A DNA stretch of 51,180 nt from an uncultured Ruminococcus sp. (GTDB taxonomy: Bacteria > Bacillota > Clostridia > Oscillospirales > Acutalibacteraceae), in the NCBI GenBank assembly GCA_902766885.1, contig CACXFS010000056.1, forward strand, positions 1-51,180, in the 5' to 3' direction. This document shows, one piece after another, positions 145 to 51,180 of the stretch; the stretch's first letter is position 1, and each line of letters starts with the position of its first letter. Both the position numbers and the translations under genes were made by a program. The notes below the pieces were generated by a model. The model had not been told where the DNA came from, did no database searches, and was given only the letters and a program-made list of their open reading frames with translations.

Positions 145-699
145 ATGAAACAATTAAGACTTAAGCTGTATACGATAGATATGAAGTATGTCCGAAATCT
201 CGCCAAAGCGGATAATAATGTAATGTCCGTATCGCCGCAAGTCAATAAAAATATTAGACCTTTCGTTGGTATTTTAATTTTGTTGGATGAGAAAAAGTAT
301 TGTATTCCCTTATCTTCTCCAAAGAAGAAATTTGAAAGTAAGAAGAATACAGTAGATTTTATAAAAATTACTCATCCTACAATAAAAAATGAAAAAGGAG
401 CAAATAAGGTTATCGGCGCATTAAATATAAATAATATGTTACCGATAGATGAGTCATTACTTACTCCTATAGATATGAAAATTCACGGGAACGATTCTCC
501 GCAGACTATTGCGTATAAGGAGCTTTTAAAAGATCAGCTTGCATTTTGTCAGAGCAATAAAGAGTTAATATTAAAAAGGGCAAATAAACTATACGATATA
601 GTAGAAAATCATCCCGATAAAAATATTAACCTGGTTAAACGCTGTTGTCAATTTGCAAAGCTTGAACGAGTTTTAAGTGATTACCTTAATAAAAAATAA
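145..699 (+). CDS. toxN: Type III toxin, ToxN/AbiQ family endoribonuclease
   Basis: A 184-aa protein. The N-terminus reads LKLYTIDMKYVRNL, followed by a segment PFVGILILLDEKKYCIPLSSPKKK, here quoted in parts: PFVGILILLDE and PLSSPKKK. This is the family's conserved pattern of a small beta-barrel ribonuclease (Y-I/D-KY, then GI..., then PL-SPK). The next block, IGALNINNMLPI, also fits. ToxN cleaves cellular and antitoxin RNAs and can kill phage-infected cells. I chose ATG 145 because AAGGGA at 131-136 is 8 nt away; ATG 136 overlaps that SD. The 36-nt repeat array and terminator immediately upstream make the family call firm. Its position on an integrated element suggests a defence or maintenance role. 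Confidence 0.9.
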   Translation: MKQLRLKLYTIDMKYVRNLAKADNNVMSVSPQVNKNIRPFVGILILLDEKKYCIPLSSPKKKFESKKNTVDFIKITHPTIKNEKGANKVIGALNINNMLPIDESLLTPIDMKIHGNDSPQTIAYKELLKDQLAFCQSNKELILKRANKLYDIVENHPDKNINLVKRCCQFAKLERVLSDYLNKK

Positions 700-725
700 A
701 ATATACTACGATATAAATTACCCTT

Positions 726-757
726 AAGCTGTTGCAGAAATGTGACAGCTTTTTTAT
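726..757 (+). terminator. Terminator after toxN
   Basis: A 7-bp perfect stem (726-732 with 745-751) with a 12-nt loop runs into a T-rich tract. Confidence 0.7.
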
Positions 758-774
758 TTAGCAGGAGGTATGCA

Positions 775-942
775 ATGCAAAAAATGACAGACAGAGATTA
801 TGTTGATAAGGAACATAAAATAGATTTGCCGGAGATGAATGCTACCATATACTTTTTAAAGCATAGCGAAACATCGGGAATAAAACAGGCGCAGGAATTA
901 CTTATAAACGCTTATGAAAAGAGAATAGGCTCTGTGCAGTAG
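775..942 (+). CDS. Small unknown protein on the integrated element
   Basis: A 55-aa reading frame starting at ATG 775, 6 nt after a perfect AGGAGG (763-768). An upstream in-frame ATG at 742 lies inside the toxN terminator and is rejected. The product is polar with a predicted C-terminal helix (IKQAQELLINAYEKRIG). The stretch YFLKHSETSG weakly recalls small TnpW-type accessory proteins of mobile elements, but I do not claim homology. It sits between toxN and the recombinase module and is probably element cargo or a regulator. Function unknown. Confidence 0.55.
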   Translation: MQKMTDRDYVDKEHKIDLPEMNATIYFLKHSETSGIKQAQELLINAYEKRIGSVQ

Positions 943-1075
943 ATATATTTTTTTATATTAGCTTTTTAAAAGTAGGTCTGGATATAATGAATATTTGTGA
1001 TATAATTGAATTGAGCAAAAGCTCACCTCAATTACAATCAGATAGTCGGTACTTAATTAGAGAAAGAGAGGGAAA

Positions 1076-1273
1076 ATGAATTTACCGACTATACTAAAGA
1101 AAACTGAATATATTAGCTTTTCGGTTGGTTTGAATATGAAGAAAAAGAATAAAATTCGTATGCTGCTCGCCAATGTATACGAACTAAAAGATGATGTTCT
1201 TTTTCAACATATGTTGTATTCAAAGTCCTACAGTTTACTTGATGGAAAGTTTAATGGAAAGGATAAGTTATGA
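1076..1273 (+). CDS. Small basic protein translationally coupled to the serine recombinase
   Basis: A 65-aa Lys-rich protein starting at ATG 1076 after GAGAGAAAGAGAGGG. Its stop overlaps the recombinase start by 4 nt (ATGA at 1270-1273), so the two are very likely co-translated. I do not recognise the sequence. Small genes upstream of large serine recombinases are sometimes recombination directionality factors, but nothing here shows that. The upstream region has a TATAAT at 1001-1006 and a 7-bp inverted repeat (1009-1015 with 1027-1033) that could serve as promoter and operator. Confidence 0.55.
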   Translation: MNLPTILKKTEYISFSVGLNMKKKNKIRMLLANVYELKDDVLFQHMLYSKSYSLLDGKFNGKDKL

Positions 1274-2904
1274 ATACAGTTACAACCGAAAATAAGATGA
1301 TTAAAACCGTTTATTGTCTGTACAGAGTTTCAACAGCAGGACAAGTAGATAAAGACGATATACCGATGCAAAAACAAGCTTGCAGAGAATTTGCTAAGAA
1401 TCAGACAGGTTGGGTTATTAAGCAAGAGTTTATGGAAAAAGGTATCTCAGGATTTAAGGTGTCAGCAGATGACAGAGATGCAATTCAAGAGCTTAAAGCC
1501 GCAGCTGAAAGAAAAGAGTTTGATATATTGCTCGTATTTATGTTTGACAGACTTGGTCGACGCCAAAATGAAACACCATTTATAGTTGAATGGTTTGCTC
1601 AACAAGGTGTAGAGGTATGGAGTGCAAAGGAAGGTCAGCAAAGATTTGAAAGCGAAGCTGATTATCTTATAAACTTTATGCGATTTTGGGCGGCAAATGG
1701 TGAAAGTCGCAAAACGTCGATGCGTGTAAAAACTCGTCTTCATCAGTTAGTTGAAGAAGGCTGTTATACCGGGGGAACAGTTCCGTTTGGATATGATCTT
1801 GTAAATAGCGGAGTTACAAACAAAAAAGGTAAGGAATTAAAAACTTTAGCTGTCAATCCAATAGAAGCAAGTATCGTTCAAGTAATATTTGATAAAACCG
1901 TAAACGAAGGCTATGGCTCTTATGTAATGGCTGAATATGTCAACGATCGAAAGATTCAAACTCATAACGGAAGTAGATTTCAGGCAAATACAATTAAGCG
2001 TATTTTGAGAAATGAAATGTACTGCGGATTTTATGTAAGAGGCGGAGTGAAATCTCCAAGGCAAGAACATTTGCAGATAATAGACGATAATACTTGGGAA
2101 CAAGCTCAAAGAATTCTCAAGCAAAGAGAATATAAAAATAAAGAGAAAACCCAGGTATGCGCAAGGACAAAAAGCGAAACTTTACTTGCAGGCAATTTAT
2201 ATTGCGGTCATTGCGGAAGTAAACTATATGCATCATCATATAATGATACATATACAACTGCGAACGGTGAAAGAAAATCTGTGAAGCGATACAGATATCT
2301 TTGTGCAGGACGAGCGATGCATAGAAATGAATGCGACGGTCAAACTGCATATACGGCAAATAAGGTTGACACAATCGTGTTGGAAGCGATGAAACAATGC
2401 TTTGAAAAAATAAAGGCAACACCAAAGGATGTTGCACTTGAACAAAGGTATAAAGCTGAGCTTGCATTAACTCGAAAGGCAATAAAGCAACTTCAAAAAG
2501 AAACTGAAACTCAAAAGAGAAAGCTTGGCGATTTAACGGAAGAAATCGCAAATGCACTCGTAGGGGATAGTAAATTTACCCCGGATATATTAGCGGTTGC
2601 AATAGAAAAATGCAAATCAAAAATTTCAGATAATGCAAAGATGATAGCAGAAAAAGAAGCCTTGTTTAAAAATCAAGAGCAAATAATAAATAAGCTCGAC
2701 TTTCATTATAATCAATTTTTGAGTTGGGCAAAAGAGTTTGATAAGCTCAATGCGCAGGAGAAGAAAATGATATGCTGCTCACTATTTAAGGAAATTAGTA
2801 TTAGCAGAGATTATAGAATAGAATTTCTTATGGAATCAGCTTATGAACAATTCCTGCAAGATACCACTCAAATGAATGTTGATGGTAAAGCAATAGTGTG
2901 TTAA
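1270..2904 (+). CDS. Large serine recombinase (site-specific integrase)
   Basis: A 544-aa protein with the resolvase/invertase catalytic domain at about 12-160, holding the YRVS motif with nucleophile Ser21 and the FDRLGR segment. The recombinase domain follows (about 175-280). A zinc ribbon has Cys312, Cys315, Cys345 and Cys355. A long charged coiled coil covers about 370-450. This is the usual architecture of phage and transposon integrases that join attP and attB. The gene ends only 60 bp from a broken tRNA-Asn, the expected arrangement at the edge of an integrated element. It probably mediates integration and excision of the element that carries toxIN. Confidence 0.95.
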   Translation: MNTVTTENKMIKTVYCLYRVSTAGQVDKDDIPMQKQACREFAKNQTGWVIKQEFMEKGISGFKVSADDRDAIQELKAAAERKEFDILLVFMFDRLGRRQNETPFIVEWFAQQGVEVWSAKEGQQRFESEADYLINFMRFWAANGESRKTSMRVKTRLHQLVEEGCYTGGTVPFGYDLVNSGVTNKKGKELKTLAVNPIEASIVQVIFDKTVNEGYGSYVMAEYVNDRKIQTHNGSRFQANTIKRILRNEMYCGFYVRGGVKSPRQEHLQIIDDNTWEQAQRILKQREYKNKEKTQVCARTKSETLLAGNLYCGHCGSKLYASSYNDTYTTANGERKSVKRYRYLCAGRAMHRNECDGQTAYTANKVDTIVLEAMKQCFEKIKATPKDVALEQRYKAELALTRKAIKQLQKETETQKRKLGDLTEEIANALVGDSKFTPDILAVAIEKCKSKISDNAKMIAEKEALFKNQEQIINKLDFHYNQFLSWAKEFDKLNAQEKKMICCSLFKEISISRDYRIEFLMESAYEQFLQDTTQMNVDGKAIVC

Positions 2905-2964
2905 AATTAAAGTATAATGCACGATATATACTTTATGATTTACCGTGTAAAGAAATACACCATC

Positions 2965-3021
2965 GAGAGCGCATGACTGTTAATCATGATGTCACTGGTT
3001 CGAGCCCAGTTGGGGGAGCCA
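2965..3021 (+). tRNA. 3' fragment of tRNA-Asn(GTT), probable attachment-site junction
   Basis: From 2965 the sequence matches bacterial tRNA-Asn: the distal D-stem GAGCGC, an anticodon arm with GTT at 2979-2981, variable loop, a T-arm with GGTTCGAGCC, and an acceptor strand ending in CCA at 3019-3021. The acceptor 5' strand and the proximal half of the D-arm are missing; no sequence upstream can pair with GGGGGA. The break lies 60 bp after the serine recombinase, so this is best read as the right junction of the integrated element. The other half should lie at its left end. Confidence 0.82.
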
Positions 3022-3024
3022 CGA

Positions 3025-3055
3025 AGGTTCGTAGAGCAATCTATGGACCTTTTTG
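3025..3055 (+). terminator. Terminator of the tRNA-Asn locus
   Basis: An 11-bp stem with two G-T pairs (3025-3035 with 3040-3050), loop GCAA, followed by TTTTTG. It sits 3 nt after the tRNA CCA and belongs to the original host tRNA transcript. Confidence 0.85.
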
Positions 3056-3111
3056 TTTTTATATTTGAAATTATCAAGCTAATAATTATTGTTAGAAAAA
3101 GCTGAAAATTT

Positions 3112-3141
3112 TTGCAATATGACCTGTAAATATATTATAAT
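3112..3141 (+). promoter_or_regulatory. Promoter for the PHP/phosphatase pair
   Basis: TTGCAA (3112-3117), 18-bp spacer, TATAAT (3136-3141), about 58 bp before the first start codon. Confidence 0.6.
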
Positions 3142-3198
3142 AAAAATATGAATTACTGACTTGCTGTACTAAGTTATTATTTGAAAGGATGTTGCAAA

Positions 3199-4053
3199 GT
3201 GATTGATTTACATGCTCATACAACGATATCAGATGGAATTTATACGCCTGATGAATTAATTAACAAGGCTATTGAAAGCGGGCTTACTGTACTGTGTATG
3301 ACTGACCATAATGCTCTGAATGATGACCTGAATAAGCTAAGAAGCAAATATCCTCAAATAACACTTCCTACGGGCTGTGAGTTTTCCTGCCACTACAAAA
3401 CTATTAAGGGGCGTGTTGTGCAGCTTCACATTGGGGGAATCGGCTTTGATATGAATGATAATGATATCAGAAGAATTATAAGGCATAATCAAAGCAGTAT
3501 GCGTCCGTACGTTGAGAGGGTTTTATCTAAACTGCAGGAAAACTGCGGAATTCATTTGTGTACTTATGATGAGTTGATTGCAGGAAATGGGAAATCGAAA
3601 ACTGTCGGAAGAAAGCACATTGCTGTTGAGATGGTGCGACAGGGAATAAGTGTTGACGTTGACGACGCATTTGATACTTATCTCGGAAAGAATAAGCCTG
3701 CGTTTGTTTCCAATGCACCTTACTTTGTTCCACTTTCTGAGGTTATTTCTGCCGTAACGAGTGCAGGCGGAATAGTTTCATTATGTCATCTGTTTGAATA
3801 CAAGCTTGATGATGAAGAAACAGATGATTTACTTAAATATTTTAAATCATTATCACACAATCAGGGTGCTATGGAGGTTTACTATTCATCATACAGCGAT
3901 GAACAGAGAGGAGTTCTCAAATTGCTTGCTGACAAACACAATCTATTATATTCTGCGGCTTCTGATTTTCACGGTGACGGTAAGGTAAAAGAACTTGGAA
4001 AATACCCTGATGAAATTTTTGAAAAAATGCTAAAGATTATGAAGATGAGGTAG
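3199..4053 (+). CDS. PHP-domain metal-dependent phosphoesterase
   Basis: A 284-aa protein opening with IDLHAHTTISDGIYTP, the first metal-binding motif of the PHP superfamily. MTDHN follows about 30 residues later and a terminal SDFHGD completes the metal cluster. The length and single-domain layout match the TrpH/YciV group, whose members hydrolyse 3',5'-nucleoside bisphosphates or short RNAs. The substrate here is unknown. I place the start at GTG 3199, 7 nt after AAAGGATG; the earlier TTG 3181 would overlap that SD. It is followed 7 nt later by a phosphatase gene, probably in one operon. Confidence 0.9.
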   Translation: MIDLHAHTTISDGIYTPDELINKAIESGLTVLCMTDHNALNDDLNKLRSKYPQITLPTGCEFSCHYKTIKGRVVQLHIGGIGFDMNDNDIRRIIRHNQSSMRPYVERVLSKLQENCGIHLCTYDELIAGNGKSKTVGRKHIAVEMVRQGISVDVDDAFDTYLGKNKPAFVSNAPYFVPLSEVISAVTSAGGIVSLCHLFEYKLDDEETDDLLKYFKSLSHNQGAMEVYYSSYSDEQRGVLKLLADKHNLLYSAASDFHGDGKVKELGKYPDEIFEKMLKIMKMR

Positions 4054-4060
4054 AATTTTA

Positions 4061-4756
4061 ATGATTTATGTTACTTCTGATTTACACGGATATCATCTTG
4101 AAAAAATTAAAGAGATGTTCGGTAAAGTAGGTTTTTCAGATGGTGATTTTTGCTTTGTTCTCGGTGATGTAATCGACAGGGGCGAGGATGGAATAAAAAT
4201 TATAAAATGGCTGATGAGTCAGCCTAATATTGAATTAATCTTAGGTAATCACGAGGCAATGATGCTCTCCTGCGAGTTTTTATTTGATGAAATTACAGAA
4301 GAATCAATCATCAAGCTCACAGGCAGTAAACTTGATTTATACCTTAACTGGGAGCAAAACGGAGCAAGACCGACAATTAACGCTTTGTATTCAACTCGAC
4401 CGAATGAAATAAAGTACATTCTTGAGTATCTGCACGAAGCACCTCTTTACGAAACGGTCAGCGTTGGCGGAAAAGATTTTCTGCTGTCACACAGCGGACT
4501 TAAGAATTTCGAAAAAAATAAAAAGCTTTCGGAGTATTCCGATGATGATTTCTTATGGAACAGACCGAAGATTGATGACAGATACTTTGATGATGTTATA
4601 ACAGTATTCGGGCACACACCGACAATTATTTACGGCGAGATGTATAAGGGTAAGGCGATTGTTACCGACACGTGGATTGATGTTGACGCAGGTGCAGCCT
4701 GCGGATTTTCGCCAATGTTATTACGACTTGACGATTTAAAGGAGTTTTATTTCTAA
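4061..4756 (+). CDS. Calcineurin-like (PPP-family) metallophosphatase
   Basis: A 231-aa protein with the complete PPP signature: SDLHG (Asp7, His9), GDVIDRG (Asp36, Asp39), GNHE (Asn63, His64), a later HSG, and GHTP. These residues bind two metal ions. Bacterial PPP enzymes include protein Ser/Thr phosphatases and symmetrical diadenosine tetraphosphatase-like hydrolases; the sequence alone does not separate these. It lies 7 nt after the PHP gene and ends before a bidirectional terminator. Confidence 0.9.
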   Translation: MIYVTSDLHGYHLEKIKEMFGKVGFSDGDFCFVLGDVIDRGEDGIKIIKWLMSQPNIELILGNHEAMMLSCEFLFDEITEESIIKLTGSKLDLYLNWEQNGARPTINALYSTRPNEIKYILEYLHEAPLYETVSVGGKDFLLSHSGLKNFEKNKKLSEYSDDDFLWNRPKIDDRYFDDVITVFGHTPTIIYGEMYKGKAIVTDTWIDVDAGAACGFSPMLLRLDDLKEFYF

Positions 4757-30665: not shown

Positions 30666-30728
30666 AAAATCCCCTCCGATAAATTGTATGAGAAAGGAAT
30701 CTTTATTATGAAAGGTATTTTAATTCGG

Positions 30729-30950
30729 CGGTGTGCCACCGCAGGCAAATCGAGTGGCAAAATTGGATTATTTTGAAAAAATGTATGCCCGAATTATAGA
30801 TTGATAAATAGATAACGTTTCGGAACGGCTTCCCAGATGTTCCATTAACAAAATAGATGACGTAAAGTAGTATCCTGCGTTAGAGTTAGATAAATTTATG
30901 ACTCCCGAGATACCGAGCTATAATCCATAGCCGATTTATATAACGGACTA
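30729..30950. repeat. Dispersed intergenic repeat, partial copy of the 450-bp element
   Basis: A 222-bp stretch without ORFs. It shares long blocks with 38500-38925 and 51030-51180: GGCAAATCGAGTGG, GATTGATAAATAG, GACGTAAA.TAGTATC, ATGACTCCCGAGATACCGAG and TATAACGGACTAAAAA. The inner palindromic blocks found at 38600-38820 are missing, which suggests a shorter base form of the element. It makes up most of the 350-bp gap before the zinc-ribbon gene. Confidence 0.75.
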
Positions 30951-38486: not shown

Positions 38487-38937
38487 TAAACCATAATTCG
38501 CCGAGTGCCTCGGCGGGCAAATAGAGTGGAAAAATCGGATTGTATGGATAAAACGGTTGACCGAATTTCAAGTTGATATATAGGTGACGTATCGGGACGT
38601 CAGGGATGCCGTCCCCTACGGATATAGAGAAAACGTTTGTATTTCAATCGTAGGGACACGGCGTGCTGTGTCCGCATTGGCAATCAAACTTTACCGATTA
38701 AACTGTAGTTATAAAGGAAAACAAACCTTTCCGTAGGGGACGGGTTCCTACACGTCCCACACACATAAATAAATTGCATAGCAATTTATTTATGTGTGGA
38801 CACGGAGTGAGTGTCCCTACGTTGACAGATGACGTAAATTAGTATCTTGCCTAAGAATCAGAAAAATGTATGACTCCCGAGATACCGAGTTTTAAATTAT
38901 TTCCGACTTTTATAACGGACTAAAAAATTATGGTTTA
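38487..38937. mobile_element. MITE-like composite repeat inserted between response regulator and kinase
   Basis: A 451-bp non-coding element with 12-bp perfect terminal inverted repeats, TAAACCATAATT (38487-38498) and AATTATGGTTTA (38926-38937). Inside are the GCCGAG/CTCGGC hairpin (38500-38514), a block shared with the copy at 51001, GTAGGGACACGG...GTGTCCGC, and GTAGGGGACGG...GTGTCCCTACG around an AT-rich palindrome. No transposase. The arms are also found, without inner blocks, at 30729-30950. It occupies nearly all of the 554-bp gap and separates a two-component pair. Confidence 0.75.
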
Positions 38938-47414: not shown

Positions 47415-48818
47415 ATGATTTTATATAACTCTCTCGGACAGACAAAACAGGAATTTGTTCCTCATACCCCCGGTAAGGTCAATATGTATACCTGCGGTCC
47501 TACCGTTTACCACTATGCGCACATCGGCAACCTCCGCACCTATATTATGGAGGATGTACTTGAAAAGTACCTGCGTTTTTCGGGATATGACGTTAACCGT
47601 GTTATGAATATCACAGACGTAGGCCACCTTTCGAGCGACGCAGATACGGGTGAGGACAAAATGCTTGCAGGTGCAAAGCGTGAGCACAAGACGGTGCTTG
47701 AAATTGCAAAGTTCTACACAGACGCATTTTTTGCTGACTGCGAAAAGCTAAACATCAAGCGTCCCGACGTTGTAGAGCCTGCAACAAACTGCATTGACAG
47801 CTTTATCAATATGATTTCTGTTCTGCTTGAGAAGGGTTATGCCTATATCGCAGGAGGAAACGTCTATTTTGATACTTCAAAGCTTGACTCCTACTACGTT
47901 TTCGGAAATATGAACGAGGAAGATTTAGCAGTCGGAGTTCGTGACAGTGTTGAGGAGGACGAAAATAAGCGCAATAAGGCTGACTTCGTGCTCTGGTTTA
48001 CAAAGTCAAAGTTTGAGTCGCAGGAGCTTAAATGGGAAAGCCCGTGGGGACTCGGCTATCCCGGCTGGCATATTGAGTGCTCGTGCATAAGCTACAAGCA
48101 CAACGGCGAGTATCTTGACATTCACTGCGGCGGAATTGACAACGCATTCCCGCACCACACAAATGAAATTGCACAGAGTGAAGCTTTCCTCGGTCATAAG
48201 TGGTGCAAATACTGGTTCCACGTTCTCCACCTAAATGACGCAAGGGGCAAGATGAGTAAGTCAAAGGGTGATTTCCTCACCGTTTCACTGCTTGAAAGCA
48301 AGGGTTACAATCCGCTTGTTTACAGAATGTTCTGCTTGCAGAGCCACTACCGCAAGCCGCTTACGTTCTCGTATGACAGCCTTGATAATACCGCAAAGGC
48401 GTACGACAAGCTTGTTAAGAGAATATCGTCACTCGACAGAAACGGCGAGGTTGACAATGCAAAGGCAGAGGAGCTTATCGGTTCATTCAAAGAGGCTCTC
48501 GACAATGATTTGAACACATCCTTAGGTCTTACCTGCGTTTACGACGCTTTAAAGGCTGACACAAACGACGCTACAAAGCTTTATGTAATTTCGGAGTTTG
48601 ATAAGGTGCTTTCTCTCGGACTTATCGGAGCAGAAAATGAAGAAACTGCTGAAAACGACAGCGAAGCAAACGCAGAAATTGAAGCTTTGATTGCACAGAG
48701 AACAAAGGCTCGTGCCGAAAAGGACTGGGCAACAGCCGACGCAATCAGAGATAAGCTCAAAGAAATGAAGGTTGTCGTTGAAGATACAAAAGACGGCATA
48801 AAGTGGCATTTTGAATAA
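47415..48818 (+). CDS. cysS: Cysteinyl-tRNA synthetase
   Basis: A 467-aa class I synthetase. YTCGPTVYHYAHIGNLRTY carries the first zinc Cys and the HIGH-type motif. GWHIECSCIS and HHTNEIAQSE supply the other zinc ligands, and GKMSKSKGD is the KMSKS loop. The C-terminal helical anticodon region is present, with an acidic insert near 410. SD AAGGAG precedes ATG 47415. It is coupled to cysE. Confidence 0.97.
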   Translation: MILYNSLGQTKQEFVPHTPGKVNMYTCGPTVYHYAHIGNLRTYIMEDVLEKYLRFSGYDVNRVMNITDVGHLSSDADTGEDKMLAGAKREHKTVLEIAKFYTDAFFADCEKLNIKRPDVVEPATNCIDSFINMISVLLEKGYAYIAGGNVYFDTSKLDSYYVFGNMNEEDLAVGVRDSVEEDENKRNKADFVLWFTKSKFESQELKWESPWGLGYPGWHIECSCISYKHNGEYLDIHCGGIDNAFPHHTNEIAQSEAFLGHKWCKYWFHVLHLNDARGKMSKSKGDFLTVSLLESKGYNPLVYRMFCLQSHYRKPLTFSYDSLDNTAKAYDKLVKRISSLDRNGEVDNAKAEELIGSFKEALDNDLNTSLGLTCVYDALKADTNDATKLYVISEFDKVLSLGLIGAENEETAENDSEANAEIEALIAQRTKARAEKDWATADAIRDKLKEMKVVVEDTKDGIKWHFE

Positions 48819-48831
48819 TTAATATAACAGT

Positions 48832-48855
48832 AGGGGCGACCATATGTGGTCGCCC
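48832..48855 (+). repeat. GGGCGACCA/TGGTCGCCC intergenic hairpin
   Basis: A perfect 9-bp palindrome with loop TATG after GTAG, similar in form to the other GTAGGG-starting intergenic repeats. It lies between cysS and the riboswitch and may help end cysS transcription, though no T tract follows. Confidence 0.65.
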
Positions 48856-48860
48856 TCGAC

Positions 48861-48991
48861 AGGGTATGGTTCCGATATTTAATCGGATAATTGAGAATTC
48901 GGTGAGAATCCGAAACAACAGTCATTACTGTATTTGACAGGCAATGTTATTAATTAGTTGCTGTCATAAGTCAGATCGCACCCCATACCCT
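48861..48991 (+). promoter_or_regulatory. Cobalamin riboswitch-like leader
   Basis: Closing stem P1 pairs AGGGTATGG (48861-48869) with CCATACCCT (48983-48991). Inside, a CCGAT/ATCGG hairpin is followed by GAATTCGGTGAGAATCCG (48895-48912), the core signature of the B12 riboswitch (GGTG-x-AA-x-TCC). ACTGT follows, then GACAG/CTGTC (48936-48940 with 48961-48965) and AAGTCAGA (48968-48975), the conserved 3' end. A terminator at 49074-49103 provides the off state. The downstream gene encodes a transcobalamin-like protein, which independently supports a corrinoid ligand. Confidence 0.85.
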
Positions 48992-49073
48992 TGGTTTTGC
49001 AATCTCGGACAAAGGAGAAAAGCAGCCGACATTAATTTGGTATTAGTATTACGCTTTGCCAAATCATTTTGGT

Positions 49074-49103
49074 GTGCTTTCCTTTTGAGGAAGGCACTTT
49101 TTT
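49074..49103 (+). terminator. Expression-platform terminator of the cobalamin leader
   Basis: A 10-bp stem with one G-T pair (49074-49083 with 49088-49097), loop TTTG, then six T. It stands 38 bp before the start codon and would stop transcription when cobalamin is bound. Confidence 0.85.
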
Positions 49104-49140
49104 GTGCCCTCTGATATATTTATAAGGAAAGGTGATTATA

Positions 49141-51003
49141 ATGAAAGAAAGAATCAAAAAACTAACCTCAATTTTGCTTGCGGCAATTATGGTGTCAACG
49201 CTCTTTACAGTGTCGCTCACAGCAAACGCCGCCGATGCCGACAAGGTGAGAGTAACGGTTAAAAACGAAGTGTATTCAACCGCAGACGGTGCAGTCTGGG
49301 ACGGAACTCTGCTTGACGAGTGGGTGAGCATTGACGAATCTTCAACAATGATGAGCGTGCTCGTTTCCGTTCTTGACAGTAAAGGCTACACACAGACGGG
49401 CGCAGAAAGCGACTACGTTACCGAAATCAACGGACTCAAAGCAGGCGATGCAGGCTATATGAGCGGCTGGATGGGCACAATCAATGACTGGTTTGCCGAC
49501 GAAGGCTACGGCGCATTCAGCGTGACAAACGGCACTCTTGAAAGCGGCGACGAATTGTGCTTTGTCTACTCAAATGCGTGGGGTGCAGATGTCGGAAGCC
49601 TTTGGGACAGTAATGATACTTCACTTGCTTCTCTTTCACTTGATAAAGGAACGCTTTCACCAGAATTTTCTTCTTCTGTAAAGGAGTACACACTCACTCT
49701 TGAAAATGAAACAGGCGTAGTTGTCACCCCAACAGCGGTCAACAAAAACTATCAGGTGAGAACATACAAAAACGAGTATACACCCACTGTTGACGGCTCG
49801 GAATTCAAGCGTTCATCAGCAATTGACGTTAAGGACGGCGACACAATTTATGTTGCTGTCGGCGACCCTGCGTGGCGTTCAATGAACTCAAGCGAAAGTG
49901 CAAACGTATATACAATTAATGTAAAGGTCAACGACAAGGTTGCAGAAAAGCTTGAAAGCACAGGCGAATATCTGCTTTCACAGGGAGTTCCCGGTGTAGG
50001 CTCTGTCGGCGGCGAATGGCGTGCACTCGGACTTGCAAGAGCAGGAAAAATCACAAGTGAACTTTCAGACGGTTATTATGAAAACCTTGTAAGTTATATT
50101 GAAGAAAACGGCAGTGCAAAGCTTGATGCAAGAAAATCAACAGAAAATTCAAGGGTAATTATTGCACTCTCTGCAATCGGCAAGGATGCAACAGACGTTG
50201 CAGGCTACAACCTTCTTGAGCCGCTTGCAGACTATGATTTTGTAACATGGCAGGGACTTAACGGACCTGTATTCGCACTGATTGCACTCGACACATACAA
50301 TTACGAAATTCCGAATTCTGGCGACGGTGTAACTCAGACGACACGTGAAAATCTCATTAATTATATTCTTGAAAGTCAGCTTGAAAACGGCGGCTGGACA
50401 TTCTTCGGAAGTACCGCTGACCCCGATATGACGGGTATGGCTATTCAGGCACTCGCTCCGTATTACAGCAAAAATGCCGACGTAAAAAATGCTGTTGACA
50501 AGGCACTTGATGTATTATCAGCTTCTCAGCAGGATAACGGCGGCTTTGCCTCATGGGGTACAGTGAATGTTGAAAGCTGTGCTCAAGTGCTCACTGCACT
50601 TGCAAGCCTTGGAATTGATGCCGATACAGACGAACGTTTTATCAAAAACGGCAACACACTTGTTGACGCAATTATGGAATTTTCGGTTGAAAACGGCTTT
50701 GCACACATAAAGGACAGCGCATATAATCAGATGGCAACCGAGCAGGCTTATTATGCGCTTGTGTCCTACAACAGAGTTAAAAACGGTAAAACCTCTCTTT
50801 ATGATATGTCAGACGTTAAGGAACTCAAATATGACGTGAACGGCGACGGAGTTGTAAATGTTCAGGACTGCACGCTGATTCAGAAATATTCGGCAGACCT
50901 TGCAGAGCTAACCGACGAACAACTTAAAAAGGCTGACTGCAACAATGACGGCATAGTGAATGTTATCGACGCAACAACACTCCAGAAAATTATAGCAGTA
51001 TAA
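49141..51003 (+). CDS. Secreted corrinoid-capture candidate: DUF4430 + alpha/alpha-toroid + dockerin
   Basis: A 620-aa protein. A signal peptide (1-30, ending TANA) is followed by a DUF4430 domain (about 60-147; GLKAGDAGYMSGWMGTINDW, then VYSNAWG), the fold of the transcobalamin C-terminal domain. A cadherin-like beta-sandwich (about 160-262) comes next. Prenyltransferase/squalene-cyclase-type helical repeats span about 265-550, with ESQLENGGWTFFG and ASQQDNGGFASWG. The end is a dockerin (about 564-620) with two Ca loops, DVNGDGVVNVQD and DCNNDGIVNVID. Human intrinsic factor combines an alpha/alpha-toroid with a DUF4430-like domain to hold B12; here the order is reversed. The upstream cobalamin riboswitch supports a B12 role. 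The dockerin would bind a cohesin. ATG 49141 with AAAGGTGA is chosen over GTG 49132. Confidence 0.85.
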   Translation: MKERIKKLTSILLAAIMVSTLFTVSLTANAADADKVRVTVKNEVYSTADGAVWDGTLLDEWVSIDESSTMMSVLVSVLDSKGYTQTGAESDYVTEINGLKAGDAGYMSGWMGTINDWFADEGYGAFSVTNGTLESGDELCFVYSNAWGADVGSLWDSNDTSLASLSLDKGTLSPEFSSSVKEYTLTLENETGVVVTPTAVNKNYQVRTYKNEYTPTVDGSEFKRSSAIDVKDGDTIYVAVGDPAWRSMNSSESANVYTINVKVNDKVAEKLESTGEYLLSQGVPGVGSVGGEWRALGLARAGKITSELSDGYYENLVSYIEENGSAKLDARKSTENSRVIIALSAIGKDATDVAGYNLLEPLADYDFVTWQGLNGPVFALIALDTYNYEIPNSGDGVTQTTRENLINYILESQLENGGWTFFGSTADPDMTGMAIQALAPYYSKNADVKNAVDKALDVLSASQQDNGGFASWGTVNVESCAQVLTALASLGIDADTDERFIKNGNTLVDAIMEFSVENGFAHIKDSAYNQMATEQAYYALVSYNRVKNGKTSLYDMSDVKELKYDVNGDGVVNVQDCTLIQKYSADLAELTDEQLKKADCNNDGIVNVIDATTLQKIIAV

Positions 51004-51180
51004 ACGATAATTTGCCGAGTGCCTCGGCAGGCAAATCGGCGGTGTGCCACCGCAGGCAAATCGAGTGGAAAAGTCGGATTGTTTTGAAAAAACGGTTGCC
51101 CGAATTATAGATTGATAAATAGGTAACGTTTCGGGACGTCAAGGATGCCGTCCCCTACGGATATAGAGGAAACGTTTGAA
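51001..51180. repeat. Copy of the 450-bp dispersed element, cut by the window end
   Basis: It starts TAAACGATAATT, sharing 11 of 12 bases with the terminal repeat at 38487, and overlaps the stop codon of the preceding gene. GCCGAG/CTCGGC (51014-51028), GAGTGGAAAA.TCGGATTG, TAACGTTTCGGGACGTC and GCCGTCCCCTACGGATATAG follow in the same order as at 38500-38635. An extra GGCGGTGTGCCACCGC block is shared with 30729. The right end is outside the window. Confidence 0.8.

Follow-up and report, generated by a model that had tools for sequence, protein, structure and literature searches.

The proteins that carry vitamin B12 in animals, intrinsic factor, transcobalamin and haptocorrin, consist of an N-terminal α/α toroid followed by a β domain. 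Animal transcobalamins end in a domain of the DUF4430 family (PMC4350170). Bacterial fusions of such a domain, named SLBB, to a toroid in either order were predicted to be B12 scavengers by Burroughs et al. in 2007 (PMC1796856). That paper describes operons with a CbiO-like ATPase, CbiQ-like genes and sometimes a second SLBB protein in bacteria that usually lack key B12 synthesis enzymes, and proposes that animals acquired their SLBB-toroid proteins from low-GC Gram-positives. The present locus appears to be of this kind, but its secreted protein ends in a dockerin. It lies at the end of contig C56, which was analysed over its entire length of 51,180 nucleotides (the window), in the 2.02 Mb genome of an uncultured Ruminococcus sp., the assembly being 92.6% complete. 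A putative cobalamin riboswitch precedes the gene, whose product combines DUF4430, cadherin-like and toroid domains with a type I dockerin.

The window protein shares with the proteins of Burroughs et al. the toroid (found there on either side of SLBB), the secretion and, judging by its relatives, probably the operon of energy-coupling factor (ECF) type. Its putative tether is a dockerin, a word that is absent from their paper, and the available portion of the text mentions neither cobalamin riboswitches nor the CbrT S component, unlike the operon described here. With the animal carriers the window protein has both domain folds in common, but their order is reversed, a cadherin-like domain and a dockerin are added, and no match is found by sequence profiles. 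The ECF-CbrT transporter of Lactobacillus delbrueckii likewise comprises a CbrT-related S component, EcfT and two EcfA domains, and CbrT is described as transporting cobalamin as well as its precursor (PMC5997447). There, CbrT is encoded within nrdJ-cbrS-cbrT-pduO and relies on a shared ECF module, whereas the importer on contig C35 of the present genome has its S component fused behind two ATPases, its own EcfT gene and extracellular proteins in the operon. Amylosome enzymes of Ruminococcus bromii also bear type I dockerins on secreted proteins of this species and its kin (PMC5814915). They differ in their cargo, which in the window protein is a putative vitamin-binding module; neither B12 nor cobalamin occurs in the main text of that paper. 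Among gut commensals, Bacteroides are known to capture B12 with lipoproteins exposed on the cell surface (PMC6143338); these bacteria belong to another phylum.

The window protein probably captures corrinoids outside the cell as part of an import operon, tethered by its dockerin and working with an ECF-CbrT importer. A conserved riboswitch-controlled corrinoid import operon with a dockerin on the capture protein very probably exists in Ruminococcus-type bacteria. Because a scavenger made of a toroid and a DUF4430 domain was predicted in bacteria in 2007, the novelty lies in the dockerin, a tether that varies an older core idea. The links to the riboswitch and to CbrT may already be known. No paper on a dockerin with a cobalamin riboswitch or with transcobalamin was found in the open PMC literature, a search that left subscription journals and supplements outside. 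To our knowledge, little has been worked out about B12 capture outside the cell by Gram-positive gut bacteria. The locus provides a definite, testable operon for this process, and it links extracellular proteins that share the construction of the human B12 carriers with an importer of the ECF-CbrT type. It also suggests that dockerins serve something besides polysaccharide breakdown.

The secreted protein

The initial annotation, made from the letters alone, had placed a cobalamin riboswitch and a terminator directly upstream of a secreted DUF4430-toroid-dockerin protein. This arrangement is borne out by the RF00174 match, the terminator at 49074-49097, the Pfam matches and a structural model (Table 1). 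The DUF4430 domain scores 31.5 bits against a Pfam cut-off of 23.8. Between DUF4430 and the toroid lies a cadherin-like domain that had been overlooked initially. It stays under its cut-off in the window protein (18.4 versus 24.2 bits) and passes in the ortholog of R. bromii YE282 (27.5 bits). All Pfam matches to the toroid are below the cut-offs (SQHop_cyclase_C, 21.8 bits; Prenyltrans, 20.4 bits). The AlphaFold2 model, calculated from an alignment of 58 sequences, has a mean predicted local distance difference test (pLDDT) score of 91.8 and a predicted template modeling (pTM) score of 0.69. It contains twelve toroid helices at residues 266-547, if 360-369 is counted as one. Among the letters conserved in the toroid are QGxNG, DPDxTGMA and ESxAQ.

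The dockerin is well formed. It matches Dockerin_1 with 44.0 bits (cut-off 22.9; 48.1 bits in the genome search), and the calcium-binding pattern D-x-N-x-D-G...N..D is intact in both loops. Its repeat pattern is the same as that of 19 other dockerins of the genome compared alongside.

Table 1. Features of the locus in the window and of the genes on contig C35
Feature	Position	Strand	Evidence
Cobalamin riboswitch aptamer (RF00174)	48851..49000	+	Rfam, 27.8 bits; 25-sequence alignment with compensatory changes
B12 box	near 48968-48985	+	Core-motif pattern
Proposed antiterminator 5' arm, conserved purine-rich segment AGGAGAAAAGCAGCC	49013..49027	+	Same place in relatives
Intrinsic terminator hairpin, then T run (TTTTTT)	49074..49097	+	Terminator search; local fold
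Gene of secreted DUF4430-cadherin-toroid-dockerin protein, 620 amino acids	49141..51003	+	Open frame, domains; ATG at 49141, stop ends at 51003
Signal peptide region	49141..49230	+	Basic N terminus, helix 2-24; read by eye
DUF4430 (transcobalamin-like SLBB β domain)	49342..49536	+	Pfam PF14478
Cadherin-like β sandwich	49627..49923	+	PF12733, sub-threshold
α/α toroid, twelve helices	49936..50781	+	Model, Foldseek toroid folds, sub-threshold Pfam matches
Type I dockerin	50830..50994	+	PF00404
Dispersed repeat ending the contig	51004..51180	+	At least 66 genome matches listed
Anchored DUF4430 protein, N-terminal membrane helix by reading	C35 (locus L026) 253-1131		Profile matches
EcfT	C35 (L026) 1135-2025		CbiQ, 43.8 bits
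EcfA-EcfA-S fusion	C35 (L026) 1998-4667		Two ABC_tran stretches and ECF_trnsprt, 46.6 bits

The importer

The contig ends 177 bases past the gene, inside a dispersed repeat of about 180 bases. Some of the listed matches to this repeat lie at contig ends (40 of 173 first-look candidates were scored). Contig C35 of this genome begins with 67 bases that are identical to the last 67 of the window (51114-51180). It encodes an anchored DUF4430 protein, EcfT and a fusion of two EcfA domains with an S component. The same gene order is unbroken at four related loci (L030, L031, L032 and L034), relatives that include R. bromii. The genes of L030 are 92% (DUF4430), 93% (EcfT) and 98% (S) identical to those on C35; its first and second genes are 12 bases apart, whereas in the window the repeat follows gene 1. 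We infer from the overlap and the gene order in relatives that C56 and C35 are joined.

The S component has a single match in the Protein Data Bank (PDB) at E values up to 1, namely CbrT in 6fnp_A (E 1.8e-10); 6fnp is presumably the entry that belongs to the L. delbrueckii paper named above. The initial annotation had suggested that BtuCDF should be looked for downstream. Because of the CbrT-matching S component, the EcfT and the EcfA pair on C35, and of the order in relatives, the partner is instead probably an importer of the ECF-CbrT type. The genome contains one Peripla_BP_2 protein that is a candidate BtuF, on contig C18, with a peptidoglycan-binding part recognized by eye, and the genome search gave no RF00174 match near it.

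The leader RNA

The RF00174 match covers the whole model (positions 1-189), with E values of 2.4e-5 in a 401-base stretch and 2.9e-5 in the whole genome, of which it is the sole RF00174 match. The riboswitch is thus where it had been predicted, but its 27.8 bits are below the Rfam gathering score of 31.5. For this reason scanning the window at the Rfam default setting gave no match, and the riboswitch came to light in a permissive scan of the leader. It is not a chance match, because the leader core aligns in 25 sequences, pairs covary and the position is shared by 16 of 19 loci. The 25 leaders (the window and 24 relatives) have an invariant core and B12 box, and changes on both sides are found in five of 12 predicted pairs.

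All tallies of related loci refer to 78 distinct loci among the at least 80 matches listed, and describe these 78 rather than all relatives. The Rfam search covered 50 of them, and matches were assigned to loci for the 19 that bear dockerins; most, but not all, matches were entered, and coordinates were compared without contig names. In 16 of the 19 a match immediately precedes the gene (in split pairs, the first of the two genes) and is the only one found in its genome under stricter search filters. Of the other three, L029 and L045 have no Rfam match and L043 starts inside the leader, but the core motif is recognized in each by pattern. A match over the gathering score is present somewhere in 34 of the 50 genomes of related loci.

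The terminator search returned one candidate, compared to an average of 0.3 in shuffled sequences, and the local fold of 48999-49106 forms this hairpin (z -3.59). The conserved purine-rich segment between aptamer and terminator is able to pair with the 5' arm of the terminator hairpin. Pairing within a locus is stronger than pairing across loci (-14.3 versus -13.3 kcal/mol, 25 loci), with four of 5000 shuffles as low, kinship among the loci not being controlled. The test comprised 25 of 28 loci, as L060, L076 and L090 failed the pattern; in L034 and L045 the segment pairs weakly. A search of 48780-49180 yielded no sigma-70-like promoter. As read from the sequence, the layout of the leader is that of a switch acting by transcription termination. 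By analogy with known cobalamin riboswitches, corrinoid would turn it off.

Related loci

Forty of 59 sampled genomes match the window protein, with many matches confined to the dockerin or to the toroid. A near-full-length single match is found in six of the 59, the window's own genome included. The best segments are 57-89% identical between the window protein and loci L029-L041.

A DUF4430 frame is present in 77 of the 78 related loci, EcfT in 64 and the S component in 60 (by profile and BLAST). The toroid frame bears a dockerin in 37 loci, as judged by a profile for which 20 of the genome's 56 dockerin matches, including the window dockerin, were used. EcfT accompanies 32 of these 37 and the S component 29; at the five without EcfT the contigs end within 460 bases of the gene. 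DUF4430-toroid fusions as in the window make up 16 of the 37, and in a further 18 the two parts are neighboring genes, each with a dockerin (L045, L046, L048, L051, L053, L054, L055, L059, L060, L062, L070, L075-L079, L089 and L092). Such split genes might encode a two-part trap that is put together on a scaffold.

A toroid tree was calculated from the window and 71 of the 78 loci, with a single toroid per locus (L064, L066, L078, L099, L102, L103 and L106 were left out). L090 was labeled as dockerin-bearing by hand, its toroid frame being below the threshold of the dockerin profile. The dockerin-bearing rows with a family label are Oscillospiraceae, except for L054 (Lachnospiraceae), and they include R. 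bromii YE282, ATCC 27255 and 5AMG. The tree requires two changes for the dockerin, whereas its well-supported branches force only one, and a single change is sufficient in 8% of 200 bootstrap trees. The dockerin may have arisen once or more than once.

Two close DUF4430-cadherin-toroid copies occur in one Lachnospiraceae genome (L049 and L050). No tether was seen in them, and their loci have an ABC ATPase match and no EcfT or CbrT match. These proteins are possibly linked to another importer.

Surface tethers and cohesins

Three of five dockerin-less toroid proteins searched with Pfam contain SLH domains (L094, L086 and L096, as opposed to L063 and L052). A C-terminal hydrophobic stretch with a basic tail is present in 20 of 40 dockerin-less loci, examples being L063, L067, L069, L072 and L098, and some of these have sortase-like motifs. 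The helix was called by a crude letter score, at least 15 hydrophobic letters out of 18 near the end; L096, which ends in SLH, was left out. Since the C-terminal part varies while the module and the operon persist, the dockerin probably represents one kind of surface tether among several.

Dockerin matches number 56 in the genome, including some half repeats. The cohesins on which the initial annotation depended are present: Pfam identifies two, one in a large protein on contig C82, with a score equal to the cut-off, and another in a 254-residue protein on C53 with a C-terminal membrane helix recognized by eye. Many dockerins and few cohesins are also described for R. bromii and R. albus, and anchoring by a single cohesin has been proposed for R. 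albus (PMC6118326).

On C53, a dockerin protein of 1025 amino acids (L028 130-3207, minus strand) has three repeated modules that look cohesin-like by eye and gave no Pfam cohesin report at E 0.001. The single-cohesin protein with the C-terminal helix is encoded nearby (L028 4691-5455, plus strand). The two are perhaps a scaffold and its anchor.

Likeness to the B12 carriers

The initial annotation had likened both domains of the window protein to the animal B12 carriers. This likeness is supported by the model of a relative; the model of the window protein itself is not closest to transcobalamin. In a Foldseek search with the window model, transcobalamin is only at rank 27 (E 5.2e-4), after terpene cyclases, which come first, and other toroid or complement-type proteins. 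The low rank is probably due to the domain order, which is reversed with respect to transcobalamin, as the aligner is sequential. A second model was therefore made from L094, a protein of Lysinibacillus contaminans that belongs to the same type of operon and has the transcobalamin domain order within one chain. The mean pLDDT of this model is 86.2, with the linker under 50. Its PDB fold matches at ranks 1-15 are all transcobalamin, intrinsic factor or haptocorrin (E 5.6e-10 to 1.3e-8), and the next match has an E value of 7.3e-5. The β domain superimposes onto that of transcobalamin (5no0) with a template modeling (TM) score of 0.80 and a root-mean-square deviation (rmsd) of 1.9.

PDB entry 3u7z, a protein of Ruminococcus gnavus (RUMGNA_00854) named as putative metal-binding, is at rank 19 for the L094 model. 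It fits the L094 DUF4430 domain as well as the transcobalamin β domain does (TM 0.81). From this model comparison, the 3u7z protein may bind corrinoid.

Proposed mechanism and alternatives

The operon could function as follows. When corrinoid is scarce, the antiterminator of the leader would form and the operon would be transcribed; when it is plentiful, the aptamer would favor the terminator and expression would stop. The toroid of the secreted protein would bind the corrinoid in the manner of intrinsic factor and transcobalamin, and would be closed by a DUF4430 β domain, either its own or that of the neighboring membrane-anchored protein. The dockerin would plug the capture protein into a cohesin on the cell surface and would thus be the counterpart of the surface-layer (S-layer) domains or membrane helices of relatives. 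The ligand may then be handed over from the capture protein to the membrane-anchored DUF4430 protein and on to the CbrT-like S component, and EcfT and the pair of EcfA ATPases would power its import.

An imported vitamin would be in accord with the apparent lack of its synthesis. CbiC is absent from the genome in a profile search, and this one marker thus gives no hint of de novo B12 synthesis. R. bromii, a keystone starch degrader, expresses metH and is reported to lack B12 synthesis, with reference to Ze et al. 2015 (PMC6231298); no cobalamin synthesis genes are reported for the related Ruminococcoides bili (PMC9431564).

Several results weigh against the proposed B12 capture. No B12 carrier is found when the PDB is searched with sequence profiles of the DUF4430 family, of the toroid family or of the two combined, and the toroid profile is nearer to terpene cyclases, as is the fold of the window model with its transcobalamin match at rank 27. 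The two domains of the L094 model do not superimpose as one unit (rmsd 11-14, TM 0.39-0.52); they are packed unlike those in the crystal structures, and the model therefore does not support a transcobalamin-like closure. A consumer of B12 is not apparent either. The genome has no Met_synt_B12 (PF02965), its only match to the B12-binding domain (PF02310) is weak and resides in an IMP dehydrogenase, and NrdJ (TIGR02504) is found in none of 16 genomes, the window's included. No B12-dependent enzyme was thus found in an assembly of which about 7% may be missing, in searches that did not include QueG and others. Furthermore, the junction between C56 and C35 falls inside a repeat, and the S component scores above the cut-off of PF07155, the Pfam model of riboflavin S components, as well (39.4 versus 26.7 bits), although higher with ECF_trnsprt (46.6 bits).

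Alternatively, the protein might capture a different ligand, such as cobinamide, another corrinoid, or another tetrapyrrole or vitamin, with only the regulation depending on B12. SLBB domains have been proposed to bind various ligands (PMC1796856), and the riboflavin model is passed by the S component. The only PDB match of the S component, however, is CbrT, which transports cobalamin and a precursor of it (PMC5997447), and the architecture of the relative L094 matches that of the B12 carriers, which makes another ligand unlikely. It is still less likely that the toroid acts as a secreted enzyme akin to squalene-hopene cyclases or polysaccharide lyases, with the riboswitch serving only the transporter encoded downstream. 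Dockerins usually carry enzymes, the Pfam and PDB profiles favor terpene cyclases, and there is a weak Pec_lyase match. Nevertheless, the riboswitch is directly 5' of the toroid gene itself, and most of the 78 loci have CbrT-type ECF genes close to this gene; all but one also hold a DUF4430 frame. Class II terpene cyclases have a DxDD acid motif. It is present in none of 72 toroids, the window's included, and a role as terpene cyclase was rejected on this ground.

A further alternative retains the corrinoid import operon but not the plain wall tether: the dockerin could place the trap within a polysaccharide-degrading, amylosome-like scaffold, among enzymes that degrade starch or fiber. The abundance of dockerins in the genome, the repeat pattern common to the window dockerin and the 19 others, and the scaffold-like proteins on C82 and C53 are in favor of this arrangement. 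It is nevertheless somewhat doubtful, because SLH domains and membrane helices tether the same module in relatives, which fits simple tethering, and one of the two Pfam cohesins is in the short protein with a C-terminal helix, similar to the anchoring described for R. albus (PMC6118326). Were the trap on such a scaffold, a polysaccharide-degrading complex would also carry a nutrient trap. As a tentative extension, its cohesins would be loaded with B12-binding proteins under corrinoid shortage, and the dockerin-bearing halves of split pairs could be brought into one site similar to that of intrinsic factor.

Other features of the window

The dispersed repeat at the end of the contig is also found at 38505-38639 and 30722-30827 of the window. 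A perfect palindromic hairpin, GGGCGACC...GGTCGCCC, is located at 48834-48855, between cysS and the riboswitch. Similar hairpins occur in L029, L030, L031 and L070, and the element is perhaps a small dispersed repeat or the terminator of cysS.

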